From assembly GCA_903866275.1 (NCBI GenBank), contig CAIPMU010000016.1, positions 259,978 to 301,111 on the forward strand: a stretch of DNA of 41,134 bases. Direction: 5' to 3'. The DNA is from Vampirovibrio chlorellavorus (GTDB lineage Bacteria; Cyanobacteriota; Vampirovibrionia; Vampirovibrionales; Vampirovibrionaceae). The notes beneath the pieces are model-generated. The model was not told the origin of the DNA. It did no database searches and saw nothing but the letters and a program-made list of their open reading frames with translations. The translations under genes and the position numbers were made by a program. The stretch's first letter is position 1. Every line of letters begins with the position of its first letter. Positions 13,766-20,464 of the stretch are shown here, piece by piece.

Positions 13766-15154
13766 TTGGGTGTCTTTTCGGAAGTGGCCGAGCGATTTAG
13801 AGGACCGGCCCAACAGAGCCGGATCCGGCAAGCTGCGCAGCACTGGCCCAGCATCAACGATCTGATCATGGCCACCTCCAAGGCGATGGATTTGCTGGAG
13901 GGCAAGCCCCTGCGTTCTGCACTGAAAGTGGCGGTGATTGCCGGCTCTATCGCCAAACTAATGAACCTGTCGGAGCGGGAAGTGGCCTCGGTGGTGTATG
14001 CCGCCTTGCTGCACGATATCGGGCTGGTGAGCCTGGTCTCCAATATCTTCCCCCATCTGCCACCGGGCTTATCGGAAAAACAGTTGTTTCAGAATCACGC
14101 CCTGCACAACGCGCGGGTGATTGGCAATCCTTACGAGCAGCCGCTGTCGAATGAGCTGTTCCAATTGTTTCACCAGCATCCGCTGGCCGCCAAGGACTTC
14201 CTGCGCAAGGTCTGCCTGTCGCAGGACGTGGGCGATATTATCTCCACGCACCACGAGCTGTGCGATGGGTCGGGCTACCCCTTCGGGCTGGTGCGAGAGC
14301 AGATTCCCATCGGGGGCCGTATTCTGGCCTTCGCCGATGTGGCCGAATGCGTGCTGGAAGTCACGGTGCGGGAAAGTTCTGCCTTTACCTCGCGCAAACA
14401 CGCGCTGGAAAGCTTCATGCAGATCAAGGCCCCCGGTAAGTTCGACCCGGACGTGATCGCGGTGTTTGGCAGCCTGCTGGAAACCAATCAGGACTTTATC
14501 AAACAAATTTCCTCACTGGACGTAGAGAACATGGTGCGGGCCTTACTGCCAGAACGCACCATGACCCTGAGCGGCTCCACCTTGCTGAGTGTAGTAGAAG
14601 CCATTGGCGGGCTATCCGATAGCACCATGTCGCTGTACAAAGCCGGGCGCTCCCGCCGGGTAGCGGATTTAGCCCTCACGCTGGCGGAAAACCTCTGCAT
14701 TCACCGGGAGCAATGTGGTGAACTCGCCATGGCCGCCCTGCTGATGGACATCGGACATTTGGGCACGCCCACGGCCATCCTGATGAAGCGCGGCCCGCTG
14801 TCGGCGGATGAACGGGCCATTATTCATGATCACCCCTTCTTGACCCAGGAGATCTTCAAAGGGGTACCCGGTTTTGAAAATATTTCCCTGTGGGCCAGCG
14901 AGCACCACGAGCGCATGAACGGCAAAGGGTACCCCGGTCATACCAAAGGCTATGAGATTTCCATTGGCGGGCGCATTCTGGCGCTGGCCGATGTGTTTGA
15001 CGCCCTGACTTCCCCACGCCCCTACCGCGAGCATTGCCATGAGCCCATGGACGCCCTCCCGGTGATTGGGCAAGGCCGCATGACCCTCTATGACAACCAG
15101 TTAGTGAACCTCCTCCGCAAAGTCATCCTCACCCGAGAGATCCCGGTGAATTAG
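13766..15154 (+). CDS. Tandem HD-GYP domain protein (cyclic-di-GMP phosphodiesterase family)
   Basis: A 462-residue protein made of two HD-GYP domains, with no receiver, PAS or membrane segment. Domain 1 (about residues 60-200) has LLHDIG, the HP pair in FHQHPLAAKDFL and STHHELCDGSGYPFG with a GGRILAFADV tail, so its metal ligands look intact. Domain 2 (about 290-440) has the full C-terminal motif (EHHERMNGKGYPGHTKG, RILALADVFDALTSPRPYR), but the HD pair reads LLMDIG, so the first His is Met. Active HD-GYP enzymes hydrolyse cyclic-di-GMP; here at most one site may work. The start is TTG at 13766 with AAGGAAG about 7 bases upstream. Nearness to the Tad locus suggests a link to adhesion, an inference. 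Confidence 0.85.
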   Translation: MGVFSEVAERFRGPAQQSRIRQAAQHWPSINDLIMATSKAMDLLEGKPLRSALKVAVIAGSIAKLMNLSEREVASVVYAALLHDIGLVSLVSNIFPHLPPGLSEKQLFQNHALHNARVIGNPYEQPLSNELFQLFHQHPLAAKDFLRKVCLSQDVGDIISTHHELCDGSGYPFGLVREQIPIGGRILAFADVAECVLEVTVRESSAFTSRKHALESFMQIKAPGKFDPDVIAVFGSLLETNQDFIKQISSLDVENMVRALLPERTMTLSGSTLLSVVEAIGGLSDSTMSLYKAGRSRRVADLALTLAENLCIHREQCGELAMAALLMDIGHLGTPTAILMKRGPLSADERAIIHDHPFLTQEIFKGVPGFENISLWASEHHERMNGKGYPGHTKGYEISIGGRILALADVFDALTSPRPYREHCHEPMDALPVIGQGRMTLYDNQLVNLLRKVILTREIPVN

Positions 15155-15173: not shown

Positions 15174-15201
15174 GCACTTTGACTGATAACAATCAAAGTG
15201 C
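15174..15201 (-). terminator. Terminator of the coaD operon
   Basis: A 9-bp stem (GCACTTTGA at 15174-15182 with TCAAAGTGC at 15193-15201). On the minus strand it is followed by TTTTTATT, so it ends the coaD operon; it may also serve the HD-GYP gene on the plus strand. Further stems, GCCTGAC/GTCAGGC (15227-15258) and CTGGGG/CCCCAG (15272-15291), lie between it and the operon's last stop codon. Confidence 0.75.
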
Positions 15202-15296: not shown

Positions 15297-16004
15297 TTAA
15301 GGATTGCTGCTGAGGGTGGTCTGTCTCAGGAATTCCTGAGCATAACTGCTACTCACCGGGGTGCCGGCGGAATAGCTGGGCTCCGGGCTAGGCTGAGCGC
15401 TGTAGCCACTCACGTCCATGGAAGGATTAGCGGGGCTATACTGTCCCACCGAGGGACGTTGACCACCGCCCACTTGCTGAGCAGCATCCATGCGAGCTTT
15501 TTTCAGGTAACGCTGGCCGTTTTTCACCACGGACTGGAACTCGATCAAGCTCTTGTCAAGGCTACCCAGGATGGCTTCGGCATACTGATCGGCACCAATG
15601 CGGATGGCGTTGGCCTCTTCGTAAGCCTGAGCCTTGGCGGCTTCGGCCTCTTCAAAGGTCTTCTTGCGCATGGCTTCCAGCTCCATGGTGATTTGCTGGC
15701 GAATACGATTGGCCTCTTCATGCACGGCACGCAGCAACTCGGATTCACTCAGCATGAACTCGGATTGTTTTTTGGCATCTTGCAGAATCTGGCCCGCTTT
15801 GGATTGCGCTTCGTTGACGATCTCGTCGCGGCGATCCAGAACGCGCTGGGCGTGTTGAATCTCGGCGGGCAGGTTTTCCCGGATGCGATCCAGGAGAGGG
15901 ACCAGTTTTTCACCGTTGACGATAGTAAATGGCGTAAAAGGAATCCCCATCCCGGTTAAGATGAAGTCTTCCATCCGCTCGATCATTCTGGCAAAAGTAT
16001 TAAT
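15297..16004 (-). CDS. DivIVA-like / Cdv3-like coiled-coil protein
   Basis: A protein of about 235 residues with a short N-terminal domain (MGIPFTPFTIVNGEKLVPLL), a long charged coiled coil (about residues 45-170: LDRRDEIVNEAQSKAGQIL, AQAYEEANAIRIGADQYAE) and a Pro/Ser/Gln-rich tail. This plan resembles the DivIVA-like, ATP-synthase-b-like proteins found next to coaD in cyanobacteria (Cdv3 type), which act in cell division. The start is uncertain. AGGAG points, with 7-base spacing, at an ATT (16002-16004) that overlaps the preceding gene's TAA; the first ordinary start is the ATG at 15986. The frame runs further upstream to 16145, but that part overlaps the previous gene and looks spurious. 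Confidence 0.75.
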   Translation of the reverse strand: MNTFARMIERMEDFILTGMGIPFTPFTIVNGEKLVPLLDRIRENLPAEIQHAQRVLDRRDEIVNEAQSKAGQILQDAKKQSEFMLSESELLRAVHEEANRIRQQITMELEAMRKKTFEEAEAAKAQAYEEANAIRIGADQYAEAILGSLDKSLIEFQSVVKNGQRYLKKARMDAAQQVGGGQRPSVGQYSPANPSMDVSGYSAQPSPEPSYSAGTPVSSSYAQEFLRQTTLSSNP

Positions 16005-16248
16005 GGCTTCTCTCCTTTCCCTTGTTTTTGGGCTTATACAACTTTGGTTCGGCCTCTGTCGCGGCAAAGGCCTTGATAAATCTTCCGTCCATCTCATCTT
16101 GCAGACAGGCGCGCAACTGATCCAGCAGGAACAGCATCTTTTCATGATCTACCAGATAGAAGGGGGTCATGGGAATGGGCCAGCCTTTTTTCATGAGCAA
16201 GGCTTCCAGTTGGTCCATGACTTTGAGGGCGTCGCTGCGTTCCATCAT
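16000..16248 (-). CDS. Short protein duplicating the N-terminal domain of the DivIVA-like neighbour
   Basis: An 82-residue product. Its segment PIPMTPFYLVDHEKMLFLLD aligns with GIPFTPFTIVNGEKLVPLLD of the next gene, sharing the pattern P-x-TPF-x-x-V-x-x-EK-x-x-x-LLD and continuing into a similar LRACLQDEM/IRENLPAEI helix. The coiled coil and tail are absent, and a basic end (KNKGKERSH) follows. It thus looks like a tandem partial duplicate. The ATG (16246-16248) overlaps the coaD TGA as ATGA, so it is translationally coupled to coaD. Function unknown; it may bind the same partner as its larger neighbour, as an inference. Confidence 0.65.
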   Translation of the reverse strand: MMERSDALKVMDQLEALLMKKGWPIPMTPFYLVDHEKMLFLLDQLRACLQDEMDGRFIKAFAATEAEPKLYKPKNKGKERSH

Positions 16249-16739
16249 GAGGCTTGGGCCCCTTCTGCCCGACGGGCCACCAGATAGCGTCCCACGTGCT
16301 CGGGCACCAGCCCGTGAATATTGCCACCCAGCTTGGCCACTTCGTTGGTCATGCTGGAAGAGAGGAACTGATATTCCAGCCCGGCCATCATGAAGATGGT
16401 TTCTACTGAAGGGCTGAGGCGTTTGTTCATTTGCGACATGGCGAACTCGTACTCGAAATCGGAGACCGCGCGAAGGCCGCGAATAATGACTTTGGCGTTG
16501 TGGGCTTTGGCGAGATCCACGGTTAATCCTTCAAATGCCTGTACTGAGACGTTGCTTAAGTGCTTAACGCTTTGCCGAACCTGCTCTTCCCGCTCATTGA
16601 TGGGAATATTGGGCTGTTTACCGGGATTTTTGACGACTGCCATAATCACCTGTTCAAACATTTGGCTGGCTCGGGTAATGATGTCCACATGCCCCAGGGT
16701 AATGGGGTCAAAGCTGCCGGGGTAAACCGCAATGGTCAC
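16245..16739 (-). CDS. coaD: Phosphopantetheine adenylyltransferase
   Basis: A 164-residue enzyme of coenzyme A synthesis that joins 4'-phosphopantetheine and ATP to give dephospho-CoA. The nucleotidyltransferase motif YPGSFDPITLGHVDII is at residues 6-21; KVIIRGLRAVSDFEYEFAMSQMN and EYQFLSSSMTNEVAKLGG match the substrate and ATP-binding segments of the family. The length is usual. The start is GTG at 16739, with GGGAG about 10 bases upstream. It begins an operon with the two genes that follow on the minus strand. CoaD next to a DivIVA-like gene is an arrangement known from cyanobacteria. Confidence 0.95.
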   Translation of the reverse strand: MTIAVYPGSFDPITLGHVDIITRASQMFEQVIMAVVKNPGKQPNIPINEREEQVRQSVKHLSNVSVQAFEGLTVDLAKAHNAKVIIRGLRAVSDFEYEFAMSQMNKRLSPSVETIFMMAGLEYQFLSSSMTNEVAKLGGNIHGLVPEHVGRYLVARRAEGAQAS

Positions 16740-17464: not shown

Positions 17465-17493
17465 TTGACAGCCCCATATGTTGAGGCTATTAT
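17465..17493 (+). promoter_or_regulatory. Sigma-70 type promoter of the rpmG-rplA operon
   Basis: A consensus -35 TTGACA (17465-17470) and a -10 TATTAT (17488-17493) are exactly 17 bases apart. The -10 ends about 30 bases before the rpmG start codon. It is the best promoter match in the window. Confidence 0.85.
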
Positions 17494-17525
17494 TGCGATT
17501 CACAACGGAAAGCCGGTTTTTGACA

Positions 17526-17690
17526 ATGGGTAAAAAGAAAAAATTAAAAAAAGTGATTTTGGCTTGCGGTGAATGTTCCGAACGGAACTACTCGACGCCC
17601 AAAACCCAGAATCAGGCCACTGAACGGTTAGAACTGAATAAGTACTGCCCCCGCTGCGCCAATCATACCCTGCACAAAGAAACCCGCTAG
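17526..17690 (+). CDS. rpmG: 50S ribosomal protein L33
   Basis: A 54-residue ribosomal protein, [20 protein letters not shown] onward. CGEC and CPRC make the two CxxC pairs of the zinc-binding (C+) form of L33, so this copy should depend on zinc. The ATG at 17526 gives the usual L33 length; the open frame further upstream (to 17478) falls within the promoter region and is not likely translated. No strong Shine-Dalgarno is seen. The order rpmG, tRNA-Trp, secE, nusG, rplK, rplA is common in bacteria. Confidence 0.92.
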
Positions 17691-17911
17691 TCCGTTGACG
17701 TCGGAGTGTCTGATAAAACTGGTTACTCTGTTTTTATCCGTTGCCTCTGCCAGTCAAAGTCTCGTCCCAGTCACGAACCACCCCAATCCGGCACAGGTTT
17801 GCCCGATGGCTTTCAGTTCGATTCCGGAACACCTTTGGCAAACTGTGGTCTTTTCAACAGGGCACCCTCCGATCTATGATCAGTCTCAAGTCAGGCCAAT
17901 TCGTATGACAT

Positions 17912-17984
17912 GCGTCCTTAGTTCAGTTGGTAGAACGTCGGTCTCCAAAACCGAATGTCGGGGGTTCGAGTCCTCCAGGGCGCG
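17912..17984 (+). tRNA. trnW: tRNA-Trp (anticodon CCA)
   Basis: A complete cloverleaf: acceptor GCGTCCT (17912-17918) with AGGGCGC (17977-17983, one G-T pair), D stem GTTC/GAAC, anticodon stem TCGGT/ACCGA around loop CTCCAAA with anticodon CCA, and T arm GGGGG-TTCGAGT-CCTCC. The discriminator base is G, and CCA is not encoded, so it must be added by the CCA enzyme. It lies between rpmG and secE and is probably cut out of the operon transcript. Confidence 0.95.
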
Positions 17985-18034
17985 TATTCTAAATTTCATA
18001 CGGACTGAGTCCACCCACACAGCAGGAGTTTAGC

Positions 18035-18310
18035 GTGAGCCCCATGGCAACCGTGAACAAACCCACCCCGGATAATTCAGACAAAAAGCCGCGCAAGTCA
18101 GAGGTTAGCCCATCACTGGTGGCGCAACTCAAAGACTACTTTGTCGGCGTCAAGTCAGAGTGGACAAAAATCAGTTGGCCCACCTGGCCACAGATTTGGG
18201 GCCAGACTATCGTGGTACTCCTGATGGTCACTATTATGACCACCGGCTTGTTTATCCTGGATTACGGCATTCACTTCACCATTACCAGTATTACCCCCCA
18301 TCGCAGTTAA
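18035..18310 (+). CDS. secE: Preprotein translocase subunit SecE
   Basis: A 91-residue SecE of the short, single-spanning type. The conserved amphipathic segment FVGVKSEWTKISWPTWPQIW is followed by the transmembrane helix TIVVLLMVTIMTTGLFILDY. SecE clamps SecY in the inner-membrane Sec channel. The start is GTG at 18035, with AGGAG six bases upstream; an ATG three codons later is possible. It is followed by nusG after 25 bases. Confidence 0.95.
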   Translation: MSPMATVNKPTPDNSDKKPRKSEVSPSLVAQLKDYFVGVKSEWTKISWPTWPQIWGQTIVVLLMVTIMTTGLFILDYGIHFTITSITPHRS

Positions 18311-18335
18311 AGATAAACCAATACAGGAAACTGAC

Positions 18336-19076
18336 ATGGCCTTTCAAACAGAACACCAATCGCCCATCGAAGCAATGAGCACTGAAGATATGGACACCCG
18401 GGAATACGAAACCGGGGATTTCGCCGTGGAAGAGGATGAGGACGAAGCGCCCAAATCCCGCGATCATCGCGTGAAAGTGATGTCTGAGCACAACTCGGAC
18501 AAAGCCATTAACGTGACTGCTGATTCGGATGCGCCCCTGAAGCGTCCACCCCGTCGTCGCTGGTACATTGTGCACACCTATTCCGGGCACGAAAACAAAG
18601 TAAAAGTGAACCTGGAACGCCGCATTGAGTCCATGAACATGGGCGATAAAATCTTCAGGGTGGAAGTCCCCAACAAGTCCGTCACCAAAATCAAGGACGG
18701 CAAGCGGACTGAAAAAGAAGAGCGCATCTTCCCCGGTTATGTACTCGTCGAGATGCTGATGGATGACGATTCGTGGTACGTGGTTCGACACACGCCGGGT
18801 GTGACCAAGTTTGTGGGCTCCCAAAAGAAGCCCATCCCGGCCAAGGATTCCGAAATCAAACGCATCTTGCTGCGGAGCCAGCCCGTGGCCGCCAAAATCG
18901 AAATCGACCTCAAAGTCGGCGAGGTGGTCAAGATCACCAGCGGCCCCTTTGCAGATTTCGAGGGCACTGTCACCGAAGTCAGCCCGGAAAAAGAGCGTCT
19001 CAAAGCGTCCGTGTCCATCTTTGGTCGCGAAACGCCGGTTGAACTGGCCTTTAACCAGGTACAGAAATCTCACTAA
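18336..19076 (+). CDS. nusG: Transcription termination/antitermination factor NusG, with acidic N-terminal extension
   Basis: A 246-residue NusG. The NGN domain begins at [20 protein letters not shown] (about residue 72) and includes [14 protein letters not shown] and [13 protein letters not shown]. The C-terminal KOW domain is [20 protein letters not shown] onward. NusG binds RNA polymerase, speeds elongation and links it to Rho or ribosomes. The first 70 residues are an acidic, probably disordered extension ([20 protein letters not shown]); many NusG proteins lack it. The ATG at 18336 has AGGAAA 5 bases upstream, which supports this start over any inside the extension. Confidence 0.95.
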
Positions 19077-19211
19077 ATCCTCACTCTACGCATGCGCCTC
19101 AGCCTGATTACTGAGGCGGGATCCCGGAAACAGTGGATCGAAACTTGTTTTTGATTTACATTCAGAGATCAAAATTTCAGACACTACACATCATCGGAGG
19201 TATACGTTCCA

Positions 19212-19634
19212 GTGGCTAAAAAAATTACCGGAAAAATTAAACTCCAGCTCACCGCTGGCAAGGCGAACCCGGCTCCCCCGGTTGGTCCTGCTTTGGGTCA
19301 GCACGGCGTTAACATTATGGAATTCTGCAAACAGTACAATGCTCAGACCACTGAAAAAGCGGGTCAGGTCATTCCTGTTGAAATTACCGTTTACGAAGAT
19401 CGCTCTTTCACCTTTGTGTTGAAAACGCCCCCTGTTTCCTTCCTGATCATCAAAGAATCCGGGATTGAAAAAGGGTCAGGCAAACCCAACACTGTGAAAA
19501 ACGGCACCCTCAATGCGGAGCAAGTCACCAAGATTGCGACCTTGAAAATGGCCGACCTGAATGCGCACACCGTGGCCTCTGCCGAGCAGATGGTTCGTGG
19601 CACCGCACGCAGCATGGGCGTGGTTTGCGAATAA
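19212..19634 (+). CDS. rplK: 50S ribosomal protein L11
   Basis: A 140-residue L11, full length and typical: [20 protein letters not shown] and [20 protein letters not shown] in the N-terminal domain, then [20 protein letters not shown] and the end [13 protein letters not shown]. It forms the stalk base near the GTPase centre of the large subunit. The start is GTG at 19212, with GGAGG about 11 bases upstream. Confidence 0.97.
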
Positions 19635-19735
19635 CGCACAACACAGCCGTTTTACACCCAGTTATATCTTCATATTAGTAACCATCATTGGGAGATTGCC
19701 TCGCGCAATCGTTTGAACCAAAGGAGATTGAATCA

Positions 19736-20464
19736 ATGGCTAAACTAAGCAAACGTCATAAACACTTCCAAGAACTGCTGAACGGTGTTCAACAGCCCTT
19801 AACCGCGAAAGAAGGGTTTTCCACGCTGAAAAAAGCCCTGGAACTTGCTAAATTCGATGAAACCGTGGAAACTCACATTCGCTTGGGCATTAACGTCAAA
19901 CACGCCGATCAACAGGTTCGTAGCACCGTTGTTCTACCCGAAGGCACTGGCAAGACGGTTCGCGTGGCTGTATTGGCCAAGGGCGAAAAAGTCAAAGAAG
20001 CCAGAGACGCCGGCGCAGACTTCGCGGGGAGCGAAGATCTGGTCGAAAAAATGGACAAAGAGAACTGGTTGGATTTTGACGTCTTGATTGCCACCCCCGA
20101 TGCGATGGGCTTGCTGGGCAAAATGGGTAAAGTGTTGGGTCCCAAAGGCCTGATGCCTAACCCCAAAACCGGCACCGTCACTTTCGATGTGGCCCAAGCC
20201 ATTAAAGAAGTAAAAGCCGGTAAAGTGGAATTCCGCGCCGACAAGCAAGGGATTGTACACACTTCGATTGGCAAAGGCCGCTTCACCGAAGATCAGCTGT
20301 TGAAAAACTTCTCCACGCTGTACGACGCCATTTTGCGCGCCAAGCCTTCGGCAGCCAAAGGCACCTACGTGAAGTCCGTTTATGTGACTTCGACCATGGG
20401 CCCCAGCCTGAAGCTGGATACCGGCCGCTTAACCAGCGAAATTCGCGATTACCTGGCGGTCTAG
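19736..20464 (+). CDS. rplA: 50S ribosomal protein L1
   Basis: A 242-residue L1, slightly longer than many. The motif [16 protein letters not shown] is at about residues 136-151, and the end is [15 protein letters not shown] onward. L1 binds 23S rRNA at the mobile stalk and in many bacteria represses its own mRNA. The ATG at 19736 has AAGGAGATT upstream; the frame is open further upstream but without a ribosome site. A terminator follows at once, so rplJ, rplL and rpoB are not in this transcription unit. Confidence 0.97.

Follow-up and report, generated by a model that had tools for sequence, protein, structure and literature searches.

Organization of the coaD locus

Vampirovibrio is a predator of algae. 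The window, by which we mean the whole stretch of 41,134 nucleotides from Vampirovibrio chlorellavorus that was analysed, carries on its minus strand three genes that follow each other leftward: coaD (16739-16245), an 82-codon gene (16248-16000, in the following called the short gene) and a longer gene ending at 15297 (the long gene). The features of this region are:

16245-16739, minus strand: coaD, encoding pantetheine-phosphate adenylyltransferase, with a GTG start (TIGR01510, 194 bits against a cut-off of 103)
16245-16248, minus strand: ATGA overlap, short-gene start on the coaD stop (read from the sequence)
16000-16248, minus strand: short gene, 82 aa, free N-domain of a Cdv3-like protein plus a disordered tail
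16078-16236, minus strand: N-domain inside the short gene, residues 5-57 (domain profile match)
16012-16017, minus strand: AAGGAG, Shine-Dalgarno-like, within the 3' end of the short gene and 7 bases before the ATT
16002-16004, minus strand: putative AUU start codon of the long gene (comparison of relatives)
15297-16004, minus strand: long gene, Cdv3-like, 235 codons plus stop
15831-16004, minus strand: N-domain of the long protein, residues 1-58 (alignments)
15471-15830, minus strand: long helix or coiled coil of the long protein, residues 59-178 (AlphaFold2 helix 25-178)
15315-15347, minus strand: short C-terminal helix of the long protein after a disordered linker, residues 220-230
15174-15201, minus strand: terminator-like hairpin with 12 pairs and a T tail, at the end of the coaD-short-long unit

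Three terminator-like sites were found against 3.0 expected in shuffled sequences, and the hairpin at 15174-15201 is the one with the longest stem. The ATGA overlap between the short gene and coaD, which an earlier note on this DNA had pointed out, is indeed located at 16248-16245, and the short gene overlaps the coaD stop in the remaining four Vampirovibrio genomes as well (n = 5 genus genomes). At the other end of the short gene, the last base of the putative AUU codon is the first base of the TAA stop. From this layout, the three genes probably form a single leftward unit.

A gene for a protein with HD and HDOD-like domains (PF13487, PF01966, PF08668) at 13766-15154 on the plus strand is convergent with the long gene, meeting it at its end, and frames at 17478-20464 on the plus strand, divergent from coaD, are named rpmG, secE, nusG, rplK and rplA-like from frame reading, not from a family search. 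At some loci of family f6, coaD and the cdv3-like gene are co-directional and head towards rpmG, secE and nusG; set against the divergent order in the window, this suggests an ancient gene neighbourhood in which one inversion has taken place.

The short gene is a free copy of an N-terminal domain

The short and long proteins share a sequence block, PMTPFYLVDHEKMLFLLD in the short protein and PFTPFTIVNGEKLVPLLD in the long one, exactly as the earlier note had claimed. Pairwise comparison of the two proteins within their own genome gave a weak match (E 7.1e-4, 36% over 45 aa). A profile made solely from the N-domains of the order's 16 long genes scored the five short proteins of the genus at 42-46 bits (E about 1e-12; 44 bits for the one in the window). 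When the short protein of the window was shuffled 5000 times, the highest score was 8.5 bits. All five short proteins are thereby placed within the Cdv3 N-domain family and, as judged from these scores, the short gene encodes, as a free domain, the N-terminal part of the protein made by the long gene that follows. The description of this domain as free of any coiled coil was also borne out: the coiled-coil region is absent from the 82 residues, and a predicted helix ends at about residue 65 and is followed by disorder. The AlphaFold2 model of the short protein has helices at residues 4-20, 28-31 and 35-65 (mean pLDDT 67), with the TPF loop predicted to join the two main helices; this model and that of the long protein were built on 4 sequences and are of moderate confidence. 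The Pfam DivIVA family (PF05103) does not match the short protein at all.

Absence of the short gene from close relatives, with its reading frame decayed, was what the earlier note had named as speaking against it. We found the opposite, with the gene intact in all five Vampirovibrio genomes, the other four copies being 78-80% identical to that of the window. The omega values for codons 1-61 of the short gene were 0.050, 0.050 and 0.077 in the pairs G000/G001, G000/G002 and G001/G002, and in the same order of pairs they were 0.120, 0.106 and 0.123 for coaD, 0.101, 0.117 and 0.116 for the whole long gene, and 0.020, 0.037 and 0.046 for the long N-domain, all of them rough values because dS is near saturation in the three divergent pairs. 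With an omega of about 0.05 the short gene is, by this measure, under strong purifying selection, and the conserved part of its protein is the domain, not the tail. A chance open reading frame is rejected by the intactness in five of five genomes, the purifying selection and the profile score, and a decaying duplicate by the lack of decay in any of the five genus genomes.

Outside of the genus the short gene was not found in any of five genomes from other genera of the family, where coaD is followed directly by the long gene. The search in families f2 and f3 covered eight genomes, of which G016 and G017 are incomplete and also lack a match to the long gene; in the six genomes with a long gene, there was no short gene between it and coaD. 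The only matches in f2, f3 and the other genera of the family were to the long gene's own domain. Among 386 genomes sampled from the phylum, a single-domain free gene was found in one genome only, that of the window itself, to which the four other genus members are to be added.

The long gene belongs with cdv3

DivIVA of the Firmicutes and Actinobacteria is a helical coiled-coil protein of the poles or septum with an N-terminal TP motif. The long protein resembles it in being a helical coiled-coil protein with such a motif, and differs in that the Pfam DivIVA model scores it at 14.5 bits, short of the gathering cut-off of 28, with a match to the coiled-coil part only. For missing this cut-off the long protein is not classed as DivIVA, and the term DivIVA-like used in the earlier note was too loose. 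A profile of the long proteins of the order has a match in 281 of the 289 genomes of the class and in 186 of the 194 that were sampled phylum-wide, the best cyanobacterial matches of the profile of the window's family have E values of 1e-28 to 1e-36, and coaD lies within the same 3-kb stretch in 14 of the 16 cyanobacterial regions examined. In Synechocystis, slr0847 is coaD and slr0848 is described as a possible operon with it (PMC5319066), the slr0848 product being Cdv3 (PMC7766704), a protein whose status as a direct DivIVA homologue is itself doubted (PMC7766704). Cdv3 (Slr0848 / Synpcc7942_2006) has the same N-domain motif as the long gene, and both adjoin coaD. On the strength of profile relatives and position, with the Slr0848 sequence itself lying outside the alignment, the name Cdv3-like suits the long protein better than DivIVA does.

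The adjacency of coaD and the cdv3-like gene is thus general across the phylum, which means that the link to coaD is old and nothing special to the short gene. The suggestion that the overlap ties the short gene in particular to CoA synthesis was rejected on this ground; as read from the gene order, what is new at this locus is the free domain.

The AlphaFold2 model of the long protein (mean pLDDT 70) consists of a helix, the loop and one long helix that reaches residue 178, from which a disordered linker leads to a small C-terminal helix, where the motif YAQEFL(R/K)QTTL is conserved within the genus. A search of the PDB with the long-gene profile gave no more than weak matches to helical proteins, apolipoprotein among them (best E 0.011). 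What appear to be duplicates of the cdv3-like gene at full length were seen close together in the cyanobacterium G389 (L149), and at a second place in the f6 genome G170 (L158/L159).

In Synechocystis, Cdv3 binds ZipN and acts with MinD (PMC7766704). Knock-out of Cdv3 in Synechococcus gives cells that are 5.4-fold longer, and its overexpression cells that are 5.8-fold longer (PMC7381316), so the dose of Cdv3 matters in both directions. MinC and MinE were present in 18 of 18 genomes of the order, showing that the usual setting for Cdv3 action exists.

The long gene appears to start with AUU

The mechanical open reading frame of the long gene runs from 16145 and would give 282 aa, which is not likely to reflect the true start. 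In an alignment of 16 relatives the protein conservation begins at the ATT at 16004-16002, giving 235 codons. Reading in frame from the preceding stop, one meets neither ATG nor GTG nor TTG before the ATT in G014, G007 and G010; the first canonical start comes 15 codons past the ATT and inside the conserved domain in G014, 6 codons downstream in G007, and in G010 there is a TTG 3 codons downstream. G012 has a TTG 6 codons upstream of the ATT, before the Shine-Dalgarno sequence. A purine-rich AAGGAG or AAGGGGAG is found just upstream of the ATT in the relatives, 7 bases away in the window. Altogether, an ATT lacking any credible canonical start is found in 9 of 16 genomes of the order (the five genus members, G007, and the f2 genomes G014, G010 and G012); by comparison the case is strict in G014, is strengthened in G007 and G010 by the absence of an upstream start, and is consistent in all nine. 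In the remaining genomes the aligned codon is ATT in G006, ATC in G005 and G008 and GTC in G009, within frames that have an upstream ATG, whereas G015 has an ATG exactly at this column and G011 and G013 have one upstream. The upstream ATG frames of G006, G005, G008 and G009 mark the AUU state as lineage-specific.

Within the genus, the block GGAAAGGAGAGAAGCCATTAATAC around the Shine-Dalgarno sequence and the ATT is invariant in all five genomes, and so is the base shared by the short-gene TAA and the ATT. Codons 1-16 show an excess of synonymous invariance (9 of 14 versus 42 of 129, Fisher p 0.036), a value obtained from five related genomes with a cut chosen after looking at the data. From this comparison of relatives the long gene appears to start with AUU at 16004-16002. 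The same start is used in G007 and in family f2, both of which are without the short gene, so that the AUU start and the short gene are separable; in G014 the coaD stop overlaps the AUU in a similar manner.

Starts of this type are rare, with infC and pcnB as the examples from E. coli (PMC9410913). In S. aureus the cvfC1 gene starts with AUU, and non-canonical starts yield about 10% of the AUG output (PMC13009471). Few genes with non-canonical starts have been characterised, and annotation pipelines miss such genes (PMC5472188). In Vampirovibrio, infC itself also appears to start with ATT (G000:C3 near 57593; L059, L060, L063-L065), as it does in G007 and probably in G005 and G006, and between the stop and this ATT there is no ATG, GTG or TTG in G002, G004 and G007. 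The infC gene of family f2 starts with ATG, and two f6 genomes have an ATA at the likely infC start.

Free-domain genes recur next to coaD

The genus g46 in f6, a distant family of the same class, has, between coaD and the cdv3-like gene, a gene that carries the domain twice and lacks a coiled coil, of at least 123 codons depending on the start chosen. Stand-alone copies beside coaD in other genomes, for which the earlier note had suggested a search, do exist in a two-domain form. A profile of seven of these g46 genes found the gene at full length in 17 of the 382 genomes of the class, all of them g46; 32 g46 genomes are among those with any match to the profile. The full-length gene is patchy within the genus (L151-L154, L162, L163, L165, L171-L187). 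It has coaD upstream in 17 of 17 cases and a cdv3-like gene downstream in 16 by one scan and in G228 by a separate match. The slot and the domain are those of the Vampirovibrio short gene, and several of the g46 genes likewise start on the coaD stop; the differences are that the g46 gene has two domains and not one, and that the long gene of g46 begins with ATG, at a distance of about 100 bases from the free gene. The AUU arrangement is thereby not part of the recurring pattern. A similar frame of 113 codons occurs in G040 and G466 (g15) and in G183 (g53), and there is a partial copy in G442 and a decayed one in G219 (L189), the latter showing that loss is possible.

The origin of the short gene was analysed in a tree of 87 domains and 58 columns, in which 133 rows had been thinned to 86 plus the window's short domain. 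The Vampirovibrio short domains form one clade (100/99) on a long branch, beside the long domains of f12 (96/80) and not beside the long domain of their own neighbour. Of the tandem duplication proposed in the earlier note, the homology of the two N-domains stands, while a recent copy of the neighbour finds no support in the tree; an AU test of the short domains placed with the neighbour's long domain did not reject it (p 0.196). Joining the short domains and the f6 free genes in one clade was marginally rejected (p 0.039), which fits separate origins of the free-domain genes.

A possible role for the free domain

The comparisons above show that the domain is homologous and conserved, where the AUU lies, how the genes overlap, and that a free-domain gene recurs in this slot. 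In the following, we consider what such an arrangement could do. The long gene would be the Vampirovibrio member of the Cdv3 family of dose-sensitive coiled-coil division proteins, and its weak AUU, placed on the stop of the short gene, would keep its synthesis low. Ribosomes leaving the short gene may help translation of the long gene, which IF3 would discourage. The short gene, with an ordinary ATG coupled to coaD, would supply the free N-domain, probably in excess, and this domain could bind either the N-domain of the long protein or a partner of that domain, and in this way limit assembly at the division site. A role of the free domain as an excess modulator of a dose-sensitive and weakly started Cdv3 is the reading we favour, tentatively and at not quite even chances; the competition or capping by the short protein that the earlier note had imagined is plausible within it. 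An extended form is rather doubtful: here the AUU would hold the Cdv3-like protein at a low level that depends on IF3, the excess of free head would titrate it, division would follow both translation capacity and CoA supply, and free-head genes at the slot between coaD and the cdv3-like gene would have arisen at least two times in the class.

The start codon could be a more ordinary one than we suggest, with the long gene beginning at the ATG of codon 7 (15986-15984) or further upstream, at an ATG within the short gene, and the ATT being an ordinary codon. The ATG at codon 7 is indeed present in the five genus genomes and in G007, and upstream in-frame ATGs occur in the genus, but the Shine-Dalgarno sequence lies 7 bases from the ATT versus 25 from the ATG of codon 7, the upstream ATGs occupy differing positions in a frame that is not conserved as protein, and the late canonical start of G014 leaves that genome without a usable alternative ahead of its conserved domain. 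We regard an ordinary start as improbable. Still further down in probability is a programmed frameshift where the short gene ends, which would produce a fusion with two N-domains and a coiled coil. The frames do overlap, and there is a Shine-Dalgarno-like sequence before the stop, as at the programmed frameshift of prfB. Against it, CAT before TAA is no convincing slippery codon, and f2 and G007 use the same start region with no short gene present; with the slip site absent, the fusion was rejected.

If the AUU start is accepted, the short gene might serve only to deliver ribosomes that re-initiate at the AUU, its protein being of little role. The shared base of TAA and AUU throughout the genus fits such a function, as does the overlap of coaD stop and AUU in G014, where coaD takes the place of the short gene, and re-initiation in E. 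coli is lowered by IF3 (PMC2268962). The selection, however, acts on the short protein sequence itself, keeping the domain and not the tail, and a free-domain gene recurs in g46 where AUU is not used, and we consider pure delivery unlikely. The free domain may also hold a partner of the N-domain (ZipN-like, MinD-like or the membrane) and not the long protein, acting as a decoy or a second, independent adaptor. Such a function is in line with the binding of ZipN by Synechocystis Cdv3 and its action with MinD (PMC7766704), with the presence of Min proteins in genomes of the order, and with the divergence of the short domain from that of its neighbour (30% identity), as expected if the bound target differs. 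We see a partner decoy as a minority possibility, and retain the modulator of a weakly started Cdv3 as the preferred reading.

Relation to known systems

Two components of the proposed modulator are of known kinds, namely a member of the Cdv3 family and an AUU start, and two are new as far as the literature was searched, namely the free head gene and the use of AUU on a division gene. Searches for literature joining Vampirovibrio with DivIVA, or Melainabacteria with cell division and DivIVA, found none. In the cited passages on Cdv3 neither an intervening free-domain gene nor an AUU start, both seen here, is described (PMC7766704, PMC5319066, PMC7381316). If the AUU start is true, its conservation on a division gene would make a direct link between IF3 and cell division. 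A free head domain beside its filament-forming relative, apparently evolved more than once, would be a simple dominant modulator and would offer a handle on Cdv3 assembly.

The infC and pcnB genes of E. coli and cvfC1 of S. aureus share the AUU start and a low yield with the long gene as we propose it, infC being subject to IF3 control at its AUU and cvfC1 having a strong Shine-Dalgarno sequence (PMC9410913, PMC13009471). The difference is that the gene in question here encodes a division protein, lies in an operon and has its AUU on the stop of the upstream gene. The closest working precedent for ratio control by a non-canonical start would, by analogy, be sigR-rsrA of Streptomyces, where a GTC start repressed by IF3 keeps a sigma factor below its adjacently encoded antagonist (PMC5472188). 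That antagonist is encoded downstream and is unrelated to its target, whereas the antagonist proposed here comes from the upstream gene and copies a part of its target. As a separate observation, the GTC of G009 (L032) at the AUU column follows a strong AAGGGGGAG. This unusual codon is also the one with which sigR of Streptomyces begins, and with an upstream ATG present as well the start of the G009 gene is ambiguous.
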